From assembly GCF_031178195.1 (NCBI RefSeq), contig NZ_JAPSJL010000007.1, positions 62,001 to 126,000 on the forward strand: DNA of 64,000 bases. Reading direction: 5' to 3'. This document shows, one piece after another, positions 4,472-12,455 of the stretch; position 1 is the first letter of the stretch, and each line of letters begins with the position of its first letter. A program made the position numbers and the translations under genes. The DNA is from Zhihengliuella sp. Its GTDB lineage: Bacteria; Actinomycetota; Actinomycetes; Actinomycetales; Micrococcaceae. The notes under the pieces are model-generated. The model did no database searches and was not told the origin of the DNA. It was given only the letters and a program-made list of their open reading frames with translations.

Positions 4472-4780
4472 CTAGATGCCGTCGATGATGTTCCCGACGC
4501 GGCGGCCGGTGCTGGTGGCCGTCACCTGGTTGTCGGCGAGGAGGCGCCGGGCCCGCTGGACGAGCGCCAGAGTGTCGCCGGCGGCCGTGACCCAGGCCCG
4601 CTCCTTGGTGTCGTAGCCCTCGCGGTTGTTCGCGTCCTCCCAGTTGTCGGCGACGAACTTCTGCTGCTGCTCGCGGTCGCCGATGATGGTCTCGATCCGT
4701 CCGGCGATGCGCAGGACGGTCGCCTCCATCTGGCCGGCGGAGGCGGTGTCGAACTGGATGACGTCGTTCTCGGTGGGCAT
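4472..4780 (-). CDS. Divergent WXG100/EsxB-like protein
   Basis: A 102-residue soluble, helical protein with no signal peptide. Two amphipathic helical halves flank a turn at W47-E48-D49, where WXG100 proteins carry W-x-G; the tryptophan is kept but the glycine is replaced by Asp. The C-terminus (RRVGNIIDGI) shows no Y-x-x-x-D/E export signal. WXG100 proteins form helical hairpin dimers exported by EccC. It lies 50 nt downstream of a second Esx-like gene with an AGGAG ribosome binding site and is divergent from eccD/eccC, so it is probably a type VII substrate or half of a heterodimer. Confidence 0.75.
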   Translation of the reverse strand: MPTENDVIQFDTASAGQMEATVLRIAGRIETIIGDREQQQKFVADNWEDANNREGYDTKERAWVTAAGDTLALVQRARRLLADNQVTATSTGRRVGNIIDGI

Positions 4781-4830
4781 GGTGTGTTCTCCTTCGAAGT
4801 CTGTTGCGGTCGGGATCGGCGAGCCTCGGC

Positions 4831-5184
4831 TCAGCGACCGCCGAGGTTGAAGCCGGTGCTGCCGGAGGCCGCGGCGGCGACGCTGGCGGCGTCGCGGCCG
4901 TCGTTCTCCATCTCGTCATCCATGTCGAGGTAGGCCTTGGCGGTCTCCGCCTGTCCGGACGAGATCGAGGCGAGCGCGGCGATGAGCTCGCCCTCGACCC
5001 GGGTGGCCTCGTTGATGAACTCCGTGAACTTCACGGCGGCGTTGCCCTTGAACGTGTGCTTGAGCTCCTCGACCCCGTCGACCATCTCCTCGACCAGGCG
5101 GATCAGCTCGACACCCGAGCCCTCCGACTGCTGCGAGGCGTCGGCCATGGCCGGGACGCTCATCTTGCCCTTGAATCCACTCAT
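4831..5184 (-). CDS. Divergent EsxA-like WXG100-superfamily protein with Y-x-x-x-D export motif
   Basis: A 117-residue helical protein starting MSGFKGKMSV, with ribosome binding site AAGGAGAA upstream. The turn position has F45-K46-G47 in place of W-x-G. Near the C-terminus Y85-L-D-M-D89 fits the Y-x-x-x-D/E type VII secretion signal, followed by a glycine/alanine/serine-rich tail. Together with the downstream Esx gene it probably forms a heterodimer of which this partner carries the export signal. The earlier ATG at 5274 would add a proline/arginine-rich stretch inside the promoter region and was rejected. Confidence 0.75.
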   Translation of the reverse strand: MSGFKGKMSVPAMADASQQSEGSGVELIRLVEEMVDGVEELKHTFKGNAAVKFTEFINEATRVEGELIAALASISSGQAETAKAYLDMDDEMENDGRDAASVAAAASGSTGFNLGGR

Positions 5185-5273
5185 GGGCGTTCTCCTTCTC
5201 CTTGGCGCAACGGGCTCCGGGAGCGCCGCTGCGGAAATCCTGTCCGGTCTCGCCCACCGAGGGGCACGCTTCA

Positions 5274-5302
5274 ATCCAACGGTCTGGAGGGCACCCGGTC
5301 AA
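5274..5302 (-). promoter_or_regulatory. Predicted promoter of the esx pair
   Basis: On the minus strand TTGACC (5302-5297) is followed after exactly 17 nt by TTGGAT (5279-5274). The -35 matches consensus at 5 of 6 positions, the -10 poorly. The leader would be about 80 nt. Confidence 0.4.
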
Positions 5303-5312
5303 GGTCGGGCGA

Positions 5313-5328
5313 TGGGGAGAACTCCCCA
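5313..5328. repeat. Inverted repeat in the divergent type VII promoter region
   Basis: TGGGGAG-AA-CTCCCCA is a perfect 7-bp inverted repeat with a 2-nt centre, 10 nt upstream of the predicted -35 of the esx genes. Its place in the divergent region suggests an operator for both transcripts. No regulator gene is adjacent. Confidence 0.5.
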
Positions 5329-5444
5329 CCCGCCCCGGAATCCCGCCCGCACGAGGGCCGGAGCTGTCATGATGGGACCGGACCAGAGCGGGGGCCGCGC
5401 CCTCCGCGACACGAGCGACGCGCACCGCGCCGGGAGGAGGAGGG

Positions 5445-5765
5445 ATGTCCACAGAGTTCGACGCGCAGTTGATCGAGGCGGTCTCCGTGCGCCGGGACCG
5501 GCTGATGGACGCGCTGCTGTTCGGCGCGAACCCGACGGAGCGCCGCTGGCGGAGCACGTTGCGGCTGTTCCTGTACAGCGTGGTGATCGCGGCCCTGATC
5601 GCCGCGATCTGCGTGGGCATCTCGTTCGTAACCCACATCCTGGAGCAGCAGGCCGCGGAGAAGGCGCAACGCGAGAGCTCCGCGGTCGTCCACTGGACTC
5701 CCCTCCCCCAGACCCCGTCCGCGGCCGCTGCGGCCGCTGCACCCCCGAGCGGCACCGGAGCATGA
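5445..5765 (+). CDS. Small single-pass membrane protein of the type VII locus, function unknown
   Basis: A 106-residue protein with a good GGAGGAGGAGGG ribosome binding site. Residues 1-35 are charged and cytosolic (…RRDRLMDALLFGANPTERRWR), residues about 39-65 form one transmembrane helix, and the remainder is a short alanine/proline-rich tail. It is the first gene of the rightward operon and overlaps eccD by ATGA. The topology (short cytosolic helix, one membrane span, outer tail) recalls the N-terminal part of EccB but without its large outer domain. That comparison is inference only, since I recognise no family motif. Confidence 0.75.
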   Translation: MSTEFDAQLIEAVSVRRDRLMDALLFGANPTERRWRSTLRLFLYSVVIAALIAAICVGISFVTHILEQQAAEKAQRESSAVVHWTPLPQTPSAAAAAAAPPSGTGA

Positions 5766-7246
5766 TGCACGAATCCCCCAGCACCCTCCAGCAGTCCCCC
5801 GGGCGGGCCGCGGCCCGCCCGCGCGGCGAGGCGGCCGCGGCGGCCGGCGGACGCTCCAACACGACGACGTCGGTGCAGCCGTACACACGCGTCACCCTGG
5901 TCGGCGAGCGCCGGCGGTTGGACCTGGTCCTGCCGTCCACGGCGGAGATCGGCACGCTCATGCCGCAGATCCTGCGCCTGCTCGGCGACGCCCCCGGCGA
6001 GCGCGTGGCCGCGAAGATCCTGCTCACCGACACGGGCGCCCCGCTGCCGGCCCACACCACGCTGGCCGAGGCGGGCGTGGTTGACGGTGCGGTCCTGAGC
6101 CTGCACAACAACTACGACGCCCCGCCGCCGGCCGTGGTCTACGACGTGACCGACGCGGTGGTGGACGAGTCGGAGCAGATCCCGTCGCTGTGGACGCGCA
6201 CCCACCTGCTGGTCGCCTCCGGGGTCGCCGCCGGGGCGGCGATGCTGCTCGGGCTGTGGGCTCTGACCACCACGTACGCGGCCGACCGCGCGTGGTGGAT
6301 CCTGCTGGGCGCCGGTGCCGCGCTGCTGGCGACCGGCGCGGCCCTGGCCCGGAGGCACCGGCCGGTCTCGGCGGTCCTGCAGGTCCTCGGCGGCGTCGTC
6401 GCGTCCCTCGGCCTGTGGCAGGCCGACTGGCTGCCCGCGGGGGCCGATGCCCTGGCCGTCGCCCTGGTCGGCACGCTCCTGATCGCCGGCCTCGCCCCGC
6501 TGGCGGCCCGCCCGCCGGCGGTCTACGCCACCGCCGGAGTCGCGGGAGGCCTGACCGCGCTGTGGGCCGGGGCGGCGGGGGTGTCCGTGTGGGCGCTCGG
6601 CCCCGCCGGTGCCGACGGCGGTGCCGCAGGGGCCCACCCCCTGGTGGGTGCGGCGGCGATCGCCGGCGTCGGCTCGGTGGCGGCCCTCGGGCTACTCCCG
6701 ACGCTGGCACTGAACGCCTCCGGCCTGGCGCGCCTCGACGATCTGCGCGCCCAGGGGGCCGAGATCGCCCGCGGCAGCGCGGTCGACGCCATCCGGGCGG
6801 CGCACGGGGCCCTGCGCTGGTCCGCCGTGGTGGTGGCCGTCTCCGTGGGTGCGGCCCTGGTGCTGCTCGGCTCGGGCGACGACGACGCCGGCCTCGTCTG
6901 GACCGTGCTGCTGACGCTGGTCCTGGCCGCGGCGACCGCCCTGCGCGCCCGTTCCTTCCCGCTCGCCCTCCAGCGGTACGCCCTGTATGCGGCGGCCGCG
7001 GCGGGCGTGTTCGCCGCCGCCGCGGAGCTCGTCGCCGCCTTCCCGGAGCGGACCTGGCTGGTCGCCGTCGTCGTGATGGTGCTGGGCCTGTTCGCCGGCC
7101 TGGGCCTGGTGACCCGGCTGGCCGACCACACGCAGGCCAGGATCCGCCAGCTCGCCGCCCGGCTGGAGACCCTCGCGGCCCTCGCCTCCGTCCCCCTGGC
7201 CGTGGGGTACTTCGGCGTCTTCCACCTGCTGCTGAACTCCTTCTAA
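5762..7246 (+). CDS. eccD: Type VII secretion integral membrane protein EccD
   Basis: A 494-residue protein. A ubiquitin-like (YukD) domain occupies about residues 38-125 (YTRVTLVGERRRLDLVLPST…), followed by about 11 transmembrane helices from residue 145 to the end. EccD forms the membrane channel scaffold of the ESX/type VII secretion complex. The start ATGATG overlaps the stop of the preceding small gene, so the first or second ATG could be used. Both membership and order (EccD, MinD-like ATPase, EccC) point to a type VII system. A longer reading to 4937 crosses the divergent promoter region and was rejected. Confidence 0.88.
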   Translation: MMHESPSTLQQSPGRAAARPRGEAAAAAGGRSNTTTSVQPYTRVTLVGERRRLDLVLPSTAEIGTLMPQILRLLGDAPGERVAAKILLTDTGAPLPAHTTLAEAGVVDGAVLSLHNNYDAPPPAVVYDVTDAVVDESEQIPSLWTRTHLLVASGVAAGAAMLLGLWALTTTYAADRAWWILLGAGAALLATGAALARRHRPVSAVLQVLGGVVASLGLWQADWLPAGADALAVALVGTLLIAGLAPLAARPPAVYATAGVAGGLTALWAGAAGVSVWALGPAGADGGAAGAHPLVGAAAIAGVGSVAALGLLPTLALNASGLARLDDLRAQGAEIARGSAVDAIRAAHGALRWSAVVVAVSVGAALVLLGSGDDDAGLVWTVLLTLVLAAATALRARSFPLALQRYALYAAAAAGVFAAAAELVAAFPERTWLVAVVVMVLGLFAGLGLVTRLADHTQARIRQLAARLETLAALASVPLAVGYFGVFHLLLNSF

Positions 7247-7263
7247 CGCCTCGAGAGTCTCTG

Positions 7264-8460
7264 ATGTCGACGAACACTCCCCCGCCCCCGCCGGGCGAAC
7301 CGCGCCGCCCGCTCTCCCGCACGCTCCCGGACCCGTGGGGGCCCGACGACGGGGCCTCCCGCTCGTCCGGGGCCCCGGACTCGCCGGGGCATCCCGGGGT
7401 GCGCCGGACCATCGAGCAACCGGTCCCCCGCGCCTCGCGCCGGACCGCCGGGGCGGCCCGCGGCGGACGCGCCGGCGTCACCGCCGGCACGGGGGCCGGC
7501 GGGGTCGGCGAGGCCCTGAGCTACGACGTGCTGCGGCTCTCCAGCGTCCGCGGCAGCGACTCCCTGCTCGCGCGCACCCTCGGCTCGCTCGCGGGCGGAG
7601 ACCCGGACGCCCAGCAGCTGCCCGAGCTGACGGCCCTCGCGCAGGCCCCGGTCGCCACCGGACGCCGGGTGGCCGTCTTCGCGACCCGCGGGGGCGCCGG
7701 CGCCACCACGACGGCGGTGCTCCTGGCCCGGTTCTTCTCCGCGGCCCGCCCGGACCGGGTGGCGATCCTCGATGCGGCCGAGGAGCACGGGACGCTCGGC
7801 CTGCGGCTCGGGGCCGTCCGCGGCAGCGGCGGGCCGGCGACGCTGGCCGGGCTGCTGCCGGCGACCACCGGCGGGAACCTGCCCACCGCCGAGGAGCTGG
7901 ACGGGCTGCTCGGGCACGCGGCGGGGAACCTCGCGGCCACCGCCAGTCCGGGGGCCGACGCGTCGGCGGACCAGTCCGCCCACGAGATCCCGGGCTCGCT
8001 CCTCCGCGAGGCCTGCGCCACCATCTCCCGCTACTTCGCGCTGACGATCGTCGACTGCCCCACGGGCGTGCTGCGCCCGGCGACCGGCGCCGCCCTGGCC
8101 GACGCGCACGCCGCCGTCTGGGTGGTGCCGGGCACGCTCAGCGGGGTCGAGGACGCGATGGCGCGCCTGGCCGCCCCGACGCTGCGCGGCCTGGCCGCCT
8201 CCGGGCGGCTCCTCCTCGTCGTCGCCCAGCAGGACCGTGCCGCCGCCGTCCCGGCCTCCGTCCACGTCCGGCGGTTCAACGAGCTCGGCTACGAGGCGCA
8301 CGTCCTGGGGTACGACGCGCATCTGGCGGCCGGGGCCCGCATCCGCGCCGGCCTGCTCGGGGCGGAGCGGCGCACGGCGCTCGCCCGGCTGGCCGCTCGC
8401 GTCCTGGAGGTCGCGAACACCGCGCCCCGCTCCCCGGACCGCACGGGGCCGCGGGCATGA
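7264..8460 (+). CDS. MinD/ParA-like ATPase of the type VII locus with a degenerate P-loop
   Basis: 398 residues. A proline/arginine-rich disordered N-terminus (1-80) precedes a P-loop domain of the SIMIBI class (about 130-390), with VAVFATRGGAGATTTAVLLARFF in the Walker A position and LTIVDCPTGVL as Walker B. The P-loop reads R142-G-G-A-G-A147-T-T, so the lysine of the usual GKT is replaced by alanine and the signature lysine by arginine. Proteins of this shape (EspI-like) accompany ESX systems and are thought to regulate them. Nucleotide hydrolysis is doubtful here. It lies 17 nt after eccD and overlaps eccC by ATGA. Confidence 0.82.
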   Translation: MSTNTPPPPPGEPRRPLSRTLPDPWGPDDGASRSSGAPDSPGHPGVRRTIEQPVPRASRRTAGAARGGRAGVTAGTGAGGVGEALSYDVLRLSSVRGSDSLLARTLGSLAGGDPDAQQLPELTALAQAPVATGRRVAVFATRGGAGATTTAVLLARFFSAARPDRVAILDAAEEHGTLGLRLGAVRGSGGPATLAGLLPATTGGNLPTAEELDGLLGHAAGNLAATASPGADASADQSAHEIPGSLLREACATISRYFALTIVDCPTGVLRPATGAALADAHAAVWVVPGTLSGVEDAMARLAAPTLRGLAASGRLLLVVAQQDRAAAVPASVHVRRFNELGYEAHVLGYDAHLAAGARIRAGLLGAERRTALARLAARVLEVANTAPRSPDRTGPRA

Positions 8461-11400
8461 GCCAGCGCCTCGTCCACCGCCCGGCGCGGACCACGCCGCC
8501 GCTGCGCGAGTACCGCCCGTTCTCGATCGATGCCCCGCCGCCCAGCGACGGCGAGGTCAGCGGACCCAACATGATGGCGATCGTGCCCATGCTCGGCGGC
8601 GCCGTCTCCATGACGGTCATGATGCTCTTCCGCAACTCCCCCTTCGCCGCGGTCGGCGCCATGATGATGGTCCTGACCGTGGTGGTCGCCGTCTTCATGA
8701 TGTTCAGCCAGCGCGGCCGCCAGCAGCGCCAGCGGCGGCAGGCCCGCGACCTGTACCTGCGCTACCTCGAGCGCACCCGGGTGAAGCTGCGCGCCGACGA
8801 GCAGGAGGCCCTGGCGACGGCCCGGGTCGCGAGCCCGCCGCCGGAGGCGCTGTTCGACGTCGTGCGCAACCCGCTGCGCCTGTGGGAGCGGCGCCGCTCC
8901 AACGAGGACTTCCTGCACGTCCGCCTCGGCACCGGGGACCGGCCGGTGCGCAGCCTCCACGTCTCGGAGGCCGCCGGACCCGGGCAGCTCGAGGACACGT
9001 TCATGGCCGCCGAGGCCGAGATCCTCCGTCGCCGCTACGCCACCAGCCCCACCATGCCCGTGACCGTGCCGCTGGACGGCGTCGGGAACGTCTCGGTGGT
9101 CGGCTCGCGCGGCTTCGCCCTCGCCGTCGCGCGGAACCTGCTCACCAGCGCCGCGGCCCTGCACTCCCCCGAGGACCTGGGACTCGGGCTCGCCGTCCCC
9201 ACGGACCGCCGCGAGGACTGGGGCTGGGCCAAGTGGCTCCCCCACCTCGCGGACCAGCAGCAGACGACGGCGGCCGGGCCGGTCCGCCGGATCGGCGCCG
9301 GGATCGACGACCTCGCCGATCTGATGGCGCCCGAGCTCGCCCAGCGCTCCAAGTTCGCCGCGGAGGCCCGCAAGAACGCGGAGTCCGCCTCCGGTGCGCT
9401 CGCCCGGCTGCTCCTGGTCAGCGACGTGCACGGGGCGCCGGCCCAGGAGCTCCCTCTCGCGGACCGCTACGTGACCCCCGCCCAGCTGGGCGTGACCGTC
9501 CTGCACCTCGTCTCCCGCCGCGACGACGAGCCCGACGACGTCGCGCTGCGGATCACCGAGACCGGGGACGGGTTCCGGCTCGAGGACTACCGGAGCGACC
9601 CGGCCCAGCCCGTGGTCCGCCACGGCGAGCTGGACGGGCTCGATGCGGCCACGGCCGGCGCGCTGGCCCGGGAGCTGGCGCCGCTGCGGCTCTCGGCCGA
9701 TTCCCTGGAGCATGGCCCGTCCACCAGCGGCGGGCAGTCCTTCCTGGAGATGCTCGGGCTCACCCCGGAGCTCGGCCGGGCGGACGTCGAGCGGACCTGG
9801 CGCCCCCGCGCCGACGCCGACTTCCTGCGCGTCCCCCTCGGCCCGGACGACCGCGGCAAGCCGGTCATGCTCGATCTGAAGGAGTCCGCCCAGCTCGGCA
9901 TGGGCCCGCACGGGCTCTGCGTGGGGGCCACCGGCTCCGGCAAGTCGGAGATGCTCCGCTCCCTCGTCTTCGGGCTGCTGGCCACCCATTCCCCCGATGT
10001 GCTGGCGATGGTGCTGGTCGACTTCAAGGGCGGCGCCACGTTCGCCCCGTTCGAAGGCGCCCCGCAGGTCACCGGCATCATCACCAACCTCTCCGACGAC
10101 CTCTCGCTGATCGAGCGCGTCTACGCCAGCCTGAACGGCGAGATCCTCCGCCGCCAAGAGGTACTCAAGGCCGCCGGCAACATCGCGAACATCACCGACT
10201 ACCAGGTCCACCGGGCCGAGCGCCTGGCCCGCGGCGAGGACATGGACCCGCTGCCGCACCTGGTGGTCATCATCGACGAGTTCGGCGAGCTCCTCACGGC
10301 CCGGCCGGACTTCATCGACCTCTTCCTCTCCATCGGCCGCATCGGCCGCTCCATCGGCGTGCACCTCCTGCTGTCCTCGCAGCGGGTCGAGGGCGGCAAG
10401 CTCAAGGGGCTGGAGACCTACCTGTCCTACCGGATCGGGCTGCGCACCCTCTCCGAGGCGGAGTCCCGCACCGTCCTGGACACCGGCGACGCGTTCCACC
10501 TGCCGCCCATGCCCGGCTACGGCTACCTCAAGGTGGACACGACCGTCTACACGCGCTTCAAGTCCGGCTACGTCTCCGGCGCCGTCGACGCCGAGCGGGG
10601 CCGTTTCGACGAGCCCGTCGAGCCGGCCCGGCCCGAGGTGCTGCCGTTGGGCTTCTACGCCGGCGAGACCGCCGTCGAGGCCGCCGACGACGGGCCCGCG
10701 ACCAAGCCGGCGGGCCAGGCGCTGCCGGAGCGGACCACAGGACCGACGGTCATGTCGACCCTGATGGAGACCCTGCGGACCTTCCCTCGCTCGGTGCAGG
10801 AGATCTGGCTGCCGCCGCTGCCGGACGCCGTCACCCTGGACGCCGTCGTCGGGCAGGTCCATCCCGGCGAGCACGGCCTGCGGCTCGAGCACGGCGGCCG
10901 CCTGCGCGTCCCGATCGGCCTGCTGGACGACCCGGCCAAGCAGTGGCAGGGGCTCTGGGAGATCGACTTCGCCTCCGGGGGCGGCAATCTCATGGTCGTC
11001 GGCGGACCGCAGTCCGGCCGGAGCACCCTGCTGCGCACCATCGCATCCTCCCTGGCCCTGACGCACCGGCCCAGCGAGGTCGGCATCTACTGCGTGGACC
11101 TGCTCGGCTCGGCCCTGCTGCCGCTCGGCCGGCTCCCGCACGTGGGCGGGACCGCCATCCGGACCAACCGCGAGGTCGTCCGCCGCACCGTCGAGGAGCT
11201 CCTCGGGATGCTCTACCACCGCGAGCGGCTCTTCGAGCTGCGGCAGATCGACTCCCTCGCGACCATGCGCCGGCTGCACGCCGCGGGTGACCTGCCCGAG
11301 CTCCCCAGCGCCGACGTCTTCCTCCTCATCGACGGCTACGCCCAGCTGAACGAGGACTTCGACGAGATCCAGGACACGGTGACCACGCTCATCATGCGCG

Positions 11401-12455
11401 GCGGCGGCTACGGCATCCACGTGGTCGCCACCCTCAACCGCACCGGGGAGATCCGGATGGCGCAGCAGGGCTTCTTCGGCAACAAGGTCGAGCTCGCGCT
11501 GGCGGACCCGGCCGACTCCTCGATCGACCGCAAGGTCGCCCAGGGCGTGCGCTCGGACGCTCCGGGCCGCGGGCTCTCGGACCGGAAGCTGATCGGCCAC
11601 GTGGCCCTGCCCCGGATCGACGGCGACGCGGACCCGGAGACACTCTCCGACGGGCTGCGCGACCTGGTCGACGCGGTGGCCGCGTCCACGAGCGAGACCG
11701 CCATGCAGGTGCGCGTCCTGCCGGCCGAGGTCTCCACCGCGGAAGCCCCCGTGCCCGCGGCGCAGGGACTGTTCCCCATCGGTCTGCGCGAGGTGGACCT
11801 GGCCGCGCAGACGATGGACATGACCCACAAGGACCGCCACCTGATCGTCATGGGCGACGAGGGCACCGGCAAGTCCAACCTGCTGCGGAACCTGATCGAC
11901 ACGTTCGTCGCGCAGCACACCCCGGACGAGCTCCTGTTCGCGGTCTACGACCCGCGCAAGGACCTCGACGACGTCGTCCCCGACGACTACCTGGGCGGCT
12001 ACGCCGGCAGCGCCGCCGTCGGCGAACAGCTCACGGCGGCGCTCGTGAAGGAGCTGGAGATGCGGCTCAACGGCGGGACCGAGGAGGAGAAGCCGGGCAC
12101 CGCGCGGCTCGTGGTGCTGGCGAACGACTACGACGTCCTCACGGCCGGGAACAGCTCCCCGCTGGGCCGCCTCGCCACCTACCTGCCGATGGCCGGGGAG
12201 CTGAATCTGAACGTCGTGCTGACGCGCAAGGTGCGCGGGGCGAGCCGCGGCATGTACGAGTCGCTGTTCTCGGTGCTGCGCGACTCCGGGTCCTCCACGC
12301 TGATCATGAGCGGCGACCGGTCCGAGGGCATGCTGGTCAACAATGTCCGCGCCCGGGCCCTGCCGCCGGGCCGCGGGCAGCTGGTCCAGACCGGCCGGCC
12401 CGTGCAGACCGTCCAGACGTTCCTGCACCCGGGCACCCCGCGGACCGACGACTGA
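8457..12455 (+). CDS. eccC: Type VII secretion ATPase EccC (FtsK/SpoIIIE family), single chain
   Basis: 1332 residues, the full length of a fused EccCa-EccCb chain. Two transmembrane helices lie at about 40-95 (MMAIVPMLGG…VFMMFSQRG), followed by a linker and three FtsK-type ATPase domains. Their P-loops are GATGSGKSE near 490, GGPQSGRST near 848 and GDEGTGKSN near 1131. The middle one has Arg in place of the catalytic Lys, consistent with regulatory rather than hydrolytic use. EccC recognises Esx C-terminal signals and drives export. The start ATG overlaps the stop of the ATPase gene, so the whole operon appears translationally coupled. Confidence 0.94.
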   Translation: MSQRLVHRPARTTPPLREYRPFSIDAPPPSDGEVSGPNMMAIVPMLGGAVSMTVMMLFRNSPFAAVGAMMMVLTVVVAVFMMFSQRGRQQRQRRQARDLYLRYLERTRVKLRADEQEALATARVASPPPEALFDVVRNPLRLWERRRSNEDFLHVRLGTGDRPVRSLHVSEAAGPGQLEDTFMAAEAEILRRRYATSPTMPVTVPLDGVGNVSVVGSRGFALAVARNLLTSAAALHSPEDLGLGLAVPTDRREDWGWAKWLPHLADQQQTTAAGPVRRIGAGIDDLADLMAPELAQRSKFAAEARKNAESASGALARLLLVSDVHGAPAQELPLADRYVTPAQLGVTVLHLVSRRDDEPDDVALRITETGDGFRLEDYRSDPAQPVVRHGELDGLDAATAGALARELAPLRLSADSLEHGPSTSGGQSFLEMLGLTPELGRADVERTWRPRADADFLRVPLGPDDRGKPVMLDLKESAQLGMGPHGLCVGATGSGKSEMLRSLVFGLLATHSPDVLAMVLVDFKGGATFAPFEGAPQVTGIITNLSDDLSLIERVYASLNGEILRRQEVLKAAGNIANITDYQVHRAERLARGEDMDPLPHLVVIIDEFGELLTARPDFIDLFLSIGRIGRSIGVHLLLSSQRVEGGKLKGLETYLSYRIGLRTLSEAESRTVLDTGDAFHLPPMPGYGYLKVDTTVYTRFKSGYVSGAVDAERGRFDEPVEPARPEVLPLGFYAGETAVEAADDGPATKPAGQALPERTTGPTVMSTLMETLRTFPRSVQEIWLPPLPDAVTLDAVVGQVHPGEHGLRLEHGGRLRVPIGLLDDPAKQWQGLWEIDFASGGGNLMVVGGPQSGRSTLLRTIASSLALTHRPSEVGIYCVDLLGSALLPLGRLPHVGGTAIRTNREVVRRTVEELLGMLYHRERLFELRQIDSLATMRRLHAAGDLPELPSADVFLLIDGYAQLNEDFDEIQDTVTTLIMRGGGYGIHVVATLNRTGEIRMAQQGFFGNKVELALADPADSSIDRKVAQGVRSDAPGRGLSDRKLIGHVALPRIDGDADPETLSDGLRDLVDAVAASTSETAMQVRVLPAEVSTAEAPVPAAQGLFPIGLREVDLAAQTMDMTHKDRHLIVMGDEGTGKSNLLRNLIDTFVAQHTPDELLFAVYDPRKDLDDVVPDDYLGGYAGSAAVGEQLTAALVKELEMRLNGGTEEEKPGTARLVVLANDYDVLTAGNSSPLGRLATYLPMAGELNLNVVLTRKVRGASRGMYESLFSVLRDSGSSTLIMSGDRSEGMLVNNVRARALPPGRGQLVQTGRPVQTVQTFLHPGTPRTDD

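Follow-up and report, generated by a model that had tools for sequence, protein, structure and literature searches.

A 64,000-nucleotide stretch of DNA from Zhihengliuella sp. (contig NZ_JAPSJL010000007.1, positions 62,001 to 126,000; hereafter the window) carries at positions 4472-12455 a compact six-gene locus of the type VII secretion system (T7SS) kind. Our analyses suggest, with a probability of about 0.8, that this locus encodes a variant of T7SSa that retains the membrane 'basket' built with EccB and operates without the chamber that EccB and mycosin form. The reading centers on a 106-amino-acid (aa) membrane protein which, as judged from profile comparisons, is a remnant of EccB comprising its N-terminus and transmembrane (TM) helix without the periplasmic domain; we refer to it as mini-EccB.

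The conserved part of mini-EccB is an N-terminal stretch with the motif VRRxRL..ALLYGxNP followed by one TM helix, beyond which the tail varies and, in the window protein, is of low complexity; the AlphaFold model places helices at residues 3-26 and 31-83 (mean pLDDT 72.9). A profile of 47 mini-EccBs searched against 15,520 open reading frames (ORFs) returned EccB N-termini as its first eight non-self matches (seven distinct loci, as one was fetched twice) and as 13 of its top 15, with a best E-value of 8e-4. Conversely, when the N-terminal 80 residues from 21 EccBs were made into a profile and run against 18,054 ORFs, ranks 1-89 were all EccB or mini-EccB, with four full EccBs (one of them within the profile) followed by 85 mini-EccBs; the window protein ranked 10th (E 3.3e-6, 27.1 bits), and the first unrelated ORF appeared only at E 0.096. 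Direct profile-profile alignment with hhalign gave probabilities of 91.4-95.3 for mini-EccB against EccB. The lowest of these came from 30 of 39 mini-EccB rows aligned to 21 of 30 EccB rows (near-copies, two mycosin-fused frames and two fragments from locus L162 having been dropped), with a pairwise E-value of 9e-7 over 65 columns and TM helix on TM helix. Control profiles were drawn from 67 of the 68 family clusters at these loci, without the largest, which was mixed; the profile holding EccB reached 64.8 and none of the others more than 2.9, and reversed profiles scored 6-8. Sequence identity in the profile alignments was 14-17%. Whole-genome scans with the mini-EccB profile also matched EccB: the match in genome G085 lies within its EccB match, and those in G713, G570, and G760 land on EccB ORFs.

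The six genes of the locus are as follows (positions in the window):

4472-4780, minus strand: esx1, ESAT-6-like helical hairpin, 102 aa
4831-5184, minus strand: esx2, WXG100 partner with FxG replacing WxG, 117 aa
5445-5765, plus strand: mini-EccB, N-terminal helix, linker, and TM helix of EccB, 106 aa
5762-7246, plus strand: eccD, ubiquitin-like domain and EccD transmembrane domain, 494 aa
7264-8460, plus strand: MinD/EspI-like P-loop protein, proline-rich N-terminus, P-loop lysine lost, 398 aa
8457-12455, plus strand: eccC, motor ATPase with three FtsK/SpoIIIE-type domains, 1332 aa

The original prediction, made from the letters of the window, had described this divergent arrangement, and all six ORFs are indeed present, several of their starts having been picked by eye within longer mechanical ORFs. 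The tight linkage that it reported for the rightward genes was borne out by ATGA overlaps at the mini-eccB/eccD and MinD/eccC junctions and a 17-base gap between eccD and the MinD-like gene, and so were its ordinary neighbors, a Pyr_redox reductase and an EamA transporter.

The gene set is conserved as a unit. The surroundings of 39 among the 73 strong EccC matches in the family sample were retrieved, and the window was added as the fortieth locus; with one canonical locus (genome G119) set aside, mini-EccB was found in 39/39 family loci and all six genes in 36/39. A script count found the gene order and strands of the window in 35 of the 36 complete loci, and only the esx pair went undetected by profile in the three incomplete ones, one of which lies at a contig end. 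Beyond the family, all six genes were present in 7/8 reduced loci from other families of the order. Among 241 genomes of the class sample, strong mini-EccB profile matches (E ≤1e-20) occurred in 20, of which 17 are outside the order; 10 of the 14 class loci fetched held all six genes, in other arrangements, and some of the others are cut by contig or region ends. Loci retrieved through mini-EccB itself, including those of Arthrobacter, Micrococcus terreus, Citricoccus, and Tersicoccus, had all six genes in 33 of 35 cases (contigs partly shared with the family and order sets). The comparison in relatives proposed with the original prediction thus identified a co-conserved locus, and the 'minimal variant' that it had suggested holds insofar as the system is reduced; the locus keeps the membrane part of EccB and is not EccB-less.

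Full-length EccB and mini-EccB largely exclude one another. In the order sample, 32/149 genomes had EccC over cut-off, 23 had EccB, and 10 had mini-EccB, all 23 and all 10 being within the 32; 22 of the EccC-positive genomes held EccB only, 9 mini-EccB only, and 1 both. In this last genome (G481), the EccC loci are about 290 kb apart and the EccB match contains one stop. One class genome with mini-EccB (G107) has full EccBs elsewhere in addition. Two strong EccC matches occur in each of five family genomes, and both loci were of the reduced type in the four for which both were fetched. Three genomes from the genus of the window genome (G137, L042/L056; G165, L049/L057; G209, L048/L058) carry two reduced loci each, whose EccCs sit on separate branches of the tree; the window genome itself has one strong EccC match. 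We also considered effectors inserted in the locus, as mini-eccB and the esx pair are some 3 kb apart in three loci (L052, L054, and L061), and set this candidate aside; the inserted ORF resembles a molybdopterin oxidoreductase by eye, no family search having been made.

A complete EccB encoded elsewhere in the window genome was ruled out, since the Pfam EccB model (PF05108) had no match anywhere in this assembly (3.15 Mb, 15 contigs, 99.97% complete). The same model exceeded its cut-off in 7/119 phylum, 23/149 order, and 1/295 family genomes, and no EccB match was found in 67 of the 68 family genomes with EccC (TIGR03924) over cut-off, which together hold the 73 strong matches. The exception, G119, is the sole family genome with EccB, which lies in an eccD-eccB-mycP block. 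The absence of EccB from the locus, as claimed originally, therefore stands for the full protein and for the whole genome, while its N-terminal and TM part remains in the locus. For EccE, likewise reported as missing, the model scored over cut-off in 0/295 family genomes, an absence that is uninformative, since G119, which has the eccB-mycP block, is negative with this model as well. No mycosin gene was found within the six-gene locus or its flanks, as the original prediction had also noted. The proposed genome-wide search for MycP had a more mixed outcome: no match to TIGR03921 was over cut-off, but three sub-cut-off subtilases lie on other contigs, the best at 233.9 bits.

The other locus products are recognizable T7SS components, in agreement with their first assignments. 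EccC was over the NCBIfam cut-offs of TIGR03924 (757 bits) and TIGR03925 (612 bits). Its first ATPase motif, Walker A GATGSGKS, is unchanged in 47/47 EccCs of the reduced clade described below, and a Walker B ending in DEF is present in at least 40 of the 47. In two loci (L185 and L212), eccC is broken into two or three frames; the reduced loci are otherwise intact. The best PDB match of the window EccC is 4nh0, an EccC that we take to originate from Thermomonospora; as a candidate solved structure of the reduced type it was rejected, since canonical EccC matches it with a higher score (1133 vs 765 bits). EccD passed TIGR03920 (104.7 bits) and PF19053, and its ubiquitin-like domain passed PF08817 (E 1e-15); EccD had no sequence match among PDB entries at E 0.01, and an EccD scan of named genomes gave no matches. 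The MinD-like assignment fared less well, as the gene exists and has weak likeness to CbiA and TIGR03815, but no Pfam or NCBIfam cut-off was passed and the P-loop lysine is gone. The P-loop reads GGAGAT in the window and GGxGK in several other relatives; the lysine is lost in the window and its same-genus relatives, so ATP hydrolysis by this protein may be dispensable.

Both Esx proteins are divergent. Esx2 passed the WXG100 model PF06013 (30.3 bits vs a cut-off of 27.3), and its motif is FxG rather than WxG in 56/56 relatives scored. Esx1 fell below the ESAT6_3 cut-off (NF035935; 45 vs 100 bits, E 9e-12), and was assigned through a profile of its relatives, for which ESAT-6 was the top PDB match (E 1e-4); nearly all other matches listed, from E 0.009, were influenza hemagglutinin helices and appear chance-like. 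The esx1 AlphaFold model is a helical hairpin (helices 12-46 and 50-101, pLDDT 75.7) with nothing at E ≤0.001 in Foldseek, where the best match was an EsxA:EsxB dimer at E 0.29. Because FxG replaces WxG and the C-terminal YxxxD/E signal is absent from esx1 and rare in esx2 relatives, the pair may be recognized differently from canonical substrates. The window esx2 does carry the signal, as YLDMD, though the pattern is not conserved across its relatives. Outside the window, the same genome encodes an orphan WXG100 protein (G000:C8:137789-138037; L221 about 7780-8068) with a WQG motif and a C-terminal YxxxE, near an ORF that by eye is GroEL-like; the orphan protein is a possible extra substrate.

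Phylogenetic trees of EccC were built from 83 of 84 rows (a split sequence from G182 was left out) and from 36, 47, and 30 chosen rows. EccCs of mini-EccB loci formed one clade with support 100 (47/83 rows; 15/36 rows in the careful tree), which EccCs from two further families of the class join (9 rows). The outgroup was a third set of EccC-like ATPases from eight family and order loci (L204-L210 and L213), near which no other profiled ESX gene was seen; N-terminal FHA or Yop-YscD_cpl domains are present in the three that were scanned, and the set is perhaps T7SSd-like. A 'mid' group from three genomes (G416, G469, and G495; loci L132, L133-L134, and L135) has a divergent full EccB, and no mycosin was found nearby with a one-sequence query; this lineage is a possible intermediate state. 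In the careful tree, the mid group branches first and the reduced clade joins the canonical one (94/93; 93 in the 47-row tree). Since this places a full-EccB group outside the reduced and canonical clades together, full EccB is most simply ancestral, and loss of the periplasmic domain in the reduced lineage is favored by the sequence trees, though not proven. That EccB truncation can happen is illustrated by a separate case in G509 (L264:13289-13654), where a 122-aa ORF beside eccD matches Pfam EccB over cut-off at positions 4-71 only (41 bits) and ends after the TM helix in a Ser/Thr/Pro-rich tail. The EccC of that locus sits inside the canonical clade, and no mycosin match was found within the 19.5 kb fetched.

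The end of mini-EccB beyond the TM helix, which is predicted to lie outside the membrane (positive-inside rule, by eye), differs among lineages. In two order loci (L070 and L137), the tail consists of repeats of DPxTG type that Pfam assigns to OCRE. Four loci of one family (f75) have a mini-EccB that continues into a TNT domain at its C-terminus (PF14021, 60-74 bits, cut-off 27), in frames of 336-361 codons, each beside esx, eccD, and MinD genes:

L248:8720-9802, TNT-fused mini-EccB
L249:9290-10315, TNT-fused mini-EccB
L250:9002-10009, TNT-fused mini-EccB
L254:8692-9747, TNT-fused mini-EccB

An enzyme domain fused to a predicted part of a secretion machine was unexpected.

The architecture of mycobacterial-type ESX systems offers a way to understand how such a machine might work. 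According to the available parts of the structural reports, the N-terminal tail and linker helix of EccB touch EccC and EccD in ESX-3 and the TM helix packs on EccD (PMC6986878), while in ESX-5 the N-terminal helix links adjacent EccD barrels, the EccC helices are enclosed in a basket of six EccB TM helices, and mycosin caps and trimerizes a chamber built from the periplasmic domains (PMC8131196). Because mini-EccB keeps the part that contacts EccC and EccD and does not have the chamber-forming part, we infer a basket without a chamber. EccC would serve as motor and gate, EccD as membrane scaffold with its ubiquitin-like domains, and the Esx pair as substrate or co-substrate. With mini-EccB supplying only the cytoplasmic N-terminal helix, linker, and TM helix of EccB, the membrane basket would assemble normally with no EccB/MycP chamber, and folded Esx dimers would cross one membrane straight into the cell wall of this single-membrane bacterium. 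Assembly, secretion, the proposed substrates, and the lack of processing would all follow from this layout. More tentatively, EccB might consist of two separable machines, in which the N-terminal/TM module suffices for assembly and gating and the outer side is an exchangeable slot, the chamber being optional and lost at least twice; in the reduced lineage, the slot would hold a floppy tail, a repeat stalk, or a TNT-type enzyme domain.

Several observations weigh against a chamberless T7SSa. The Pfam EccB model gave no match to the window mini-EccB, a PDB search with the mini-EccB profile reached no EccB chain at E-values of 10 or below, and the predicted model had no Foldseek match. Moreover, the ORF sets used with the forward and reverse profiles came from selected T7SS loci and include duplicate contigs. 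The YxxxD/E signal is present in 0/57 esx1 and 11/56 esx2 relatives, a subtilase elsewhere in the window genome might conceivably be a dedicated unlinked mycosin, and in the available portions of PMC5082899 and PMC8131196 mycosin is described as essential to secretion and as stabilizing the complexes of ESX-1 and ESX-5.

We therefore considered what else could account for the locus. The small membrane protein might be an unrelated single-pass component that replaced EccB convergently, comparable to EssA or TsdH/TseK; short TM proteins do occur in other T7SS subtypes (PMC11217815, as far as its available text goes), and both the low identity and the missing Pfam match would fit. Such an origin is nevertheless very improbable, as the reverse EccB profile reaches mini-EccB at E 3e-6 with no other family ranked between, the reversed and other-family hhalign controls fail, a bona fide short EccB of the same layout is known from G509, and both gene position and mutual exclusion fit EccB. 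Still harder to credit is that the locus is a decaying remnant without function. The lost P-loop lysine in the window and its genus and the split eccC of L185 and L212 might be taken as signs of decay, but gene set and order are retained over many loci, Walker A is invariant, and the family genomes with two fetched loci carry two of the reduced type.

Two further possibilities concern the missing outer parts. The unlinked S8 protease of the window genome might serve as a borrowed mycosin, since its 233.9 bits equal the score of the locus-linked mycosin of G119, and by eye its N-terminus resembles a signal peptide and its C-terminus carries a TM helix. However, TIGR03921 matches subtilases, none over cut-off, in 292/295 family genomes with or without strong EccC, so the window-genome subtilase is not evidence of a dedicated mycosin; the five best matches are all in genomes without strong EccC, and EccC-positive G130 has no match at all. 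In the subtilase tree, the window-genome protease pairs with that of G265, a genome without strong EccC, with some locus-linked subtilases on the same side. There is also no EccB periplasmic domain on which a mycosin could dock, and we regard the borrowing as improbable. The reduced machine could instead be ancestral, with mini-EccB first and the periplasmic domain and mycosin added in the canonical line. The alternative topology that would permit this, with the mid and canonical groups together and the reduced clade outside, is not rejected by the approximately unbiased test (p-AU 0.152), and two quick EccC trees leave the branching order of the three groups unresolved. The careful tree, with its full-EccB mid group outside, and the second truncation in G509 count against it, which makes this order of events rather unlikely.

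In the ESX structures, mycosin and the periplasmic domains of EccB are described as a likely conduit and as important to assembly. If the locus does encode a T7SSa with a basket and no chamber, a widespread lineage with an anchor-only EccB would be a case in which nature has uncoupled the inner-membrane motor from the chamber. Non-pathogenic hosts of mini-EccB would allow one to ask what the minimum for type VII transport is, and whether the chamber is there for processing, for passage through the envelope, or for stability. Because mini-EccB escapes the standard EccB model, such systems would also be annotated as incomplete. No account of a T7SSa with truncated EccB was found among the matches listed in our search of the open-licence literature.

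Among known systems, the locus most resembles T7SSa, particularly ESX-4-like members, with which it shares EccC, EccD with a ubiquitin-like domain, an Esx pair, and the EccB N-terminus and TM helix; the window EccC scores best against the EccCa/EccCb models. The MinD-like protein recalls EspI of ESX-1 and ESX-2, which we take to combine a proline-rich N-terminus with a MinD-like P-loop domain beside ESX genes, but it has lost the P-loop lysine and matches no family over cut-off. T7SSb (EssC/EssA/EssB/EsaA/EsaB) also pairs a motor ATPase with Esx proteins. However, the window EccC scores only 486 bits against the EssC model TIGR03928 (cut-off 778) compared with 757 for EccCa, and the ubiquitin-like domain is fused in eccD rather than free as EsaB; EssA, EssB, and EsaA were not found by Pfam or NCBIfam among the six locus genes, the genome not having been searched for them. 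Garrett et al. (2024) added T7SSc to T7SSj, and in the available text only T7SSd is actinobacterial, with FHA domains and no ubiquitin-like protein (PMC11217815). T7SSd is likewise a small actinobacterial T7SS with an EccC-type ATPase, WXG100 proteins, and a single-TM protein (same source), but the window locus has EccD and an EccB-derived TM protein, and no FHA domain was seen on its EccC among the best 25 of 28 Pfam families. Actinobacterial ESX-4 comprises EccB, EccC, EccD, and MycP in the available part of Newton-Foot et al. (2016, PMC4791881). In contrast, the window locus has neither an EccB periplasmic domain nor a mycosin gene, and its EccC falls in a separate clade. As we looked for a complete EccB and a locus-encoded mycosin and found neither, the mini-EccB locus is a new variant of T7SSa rather than a standard member.

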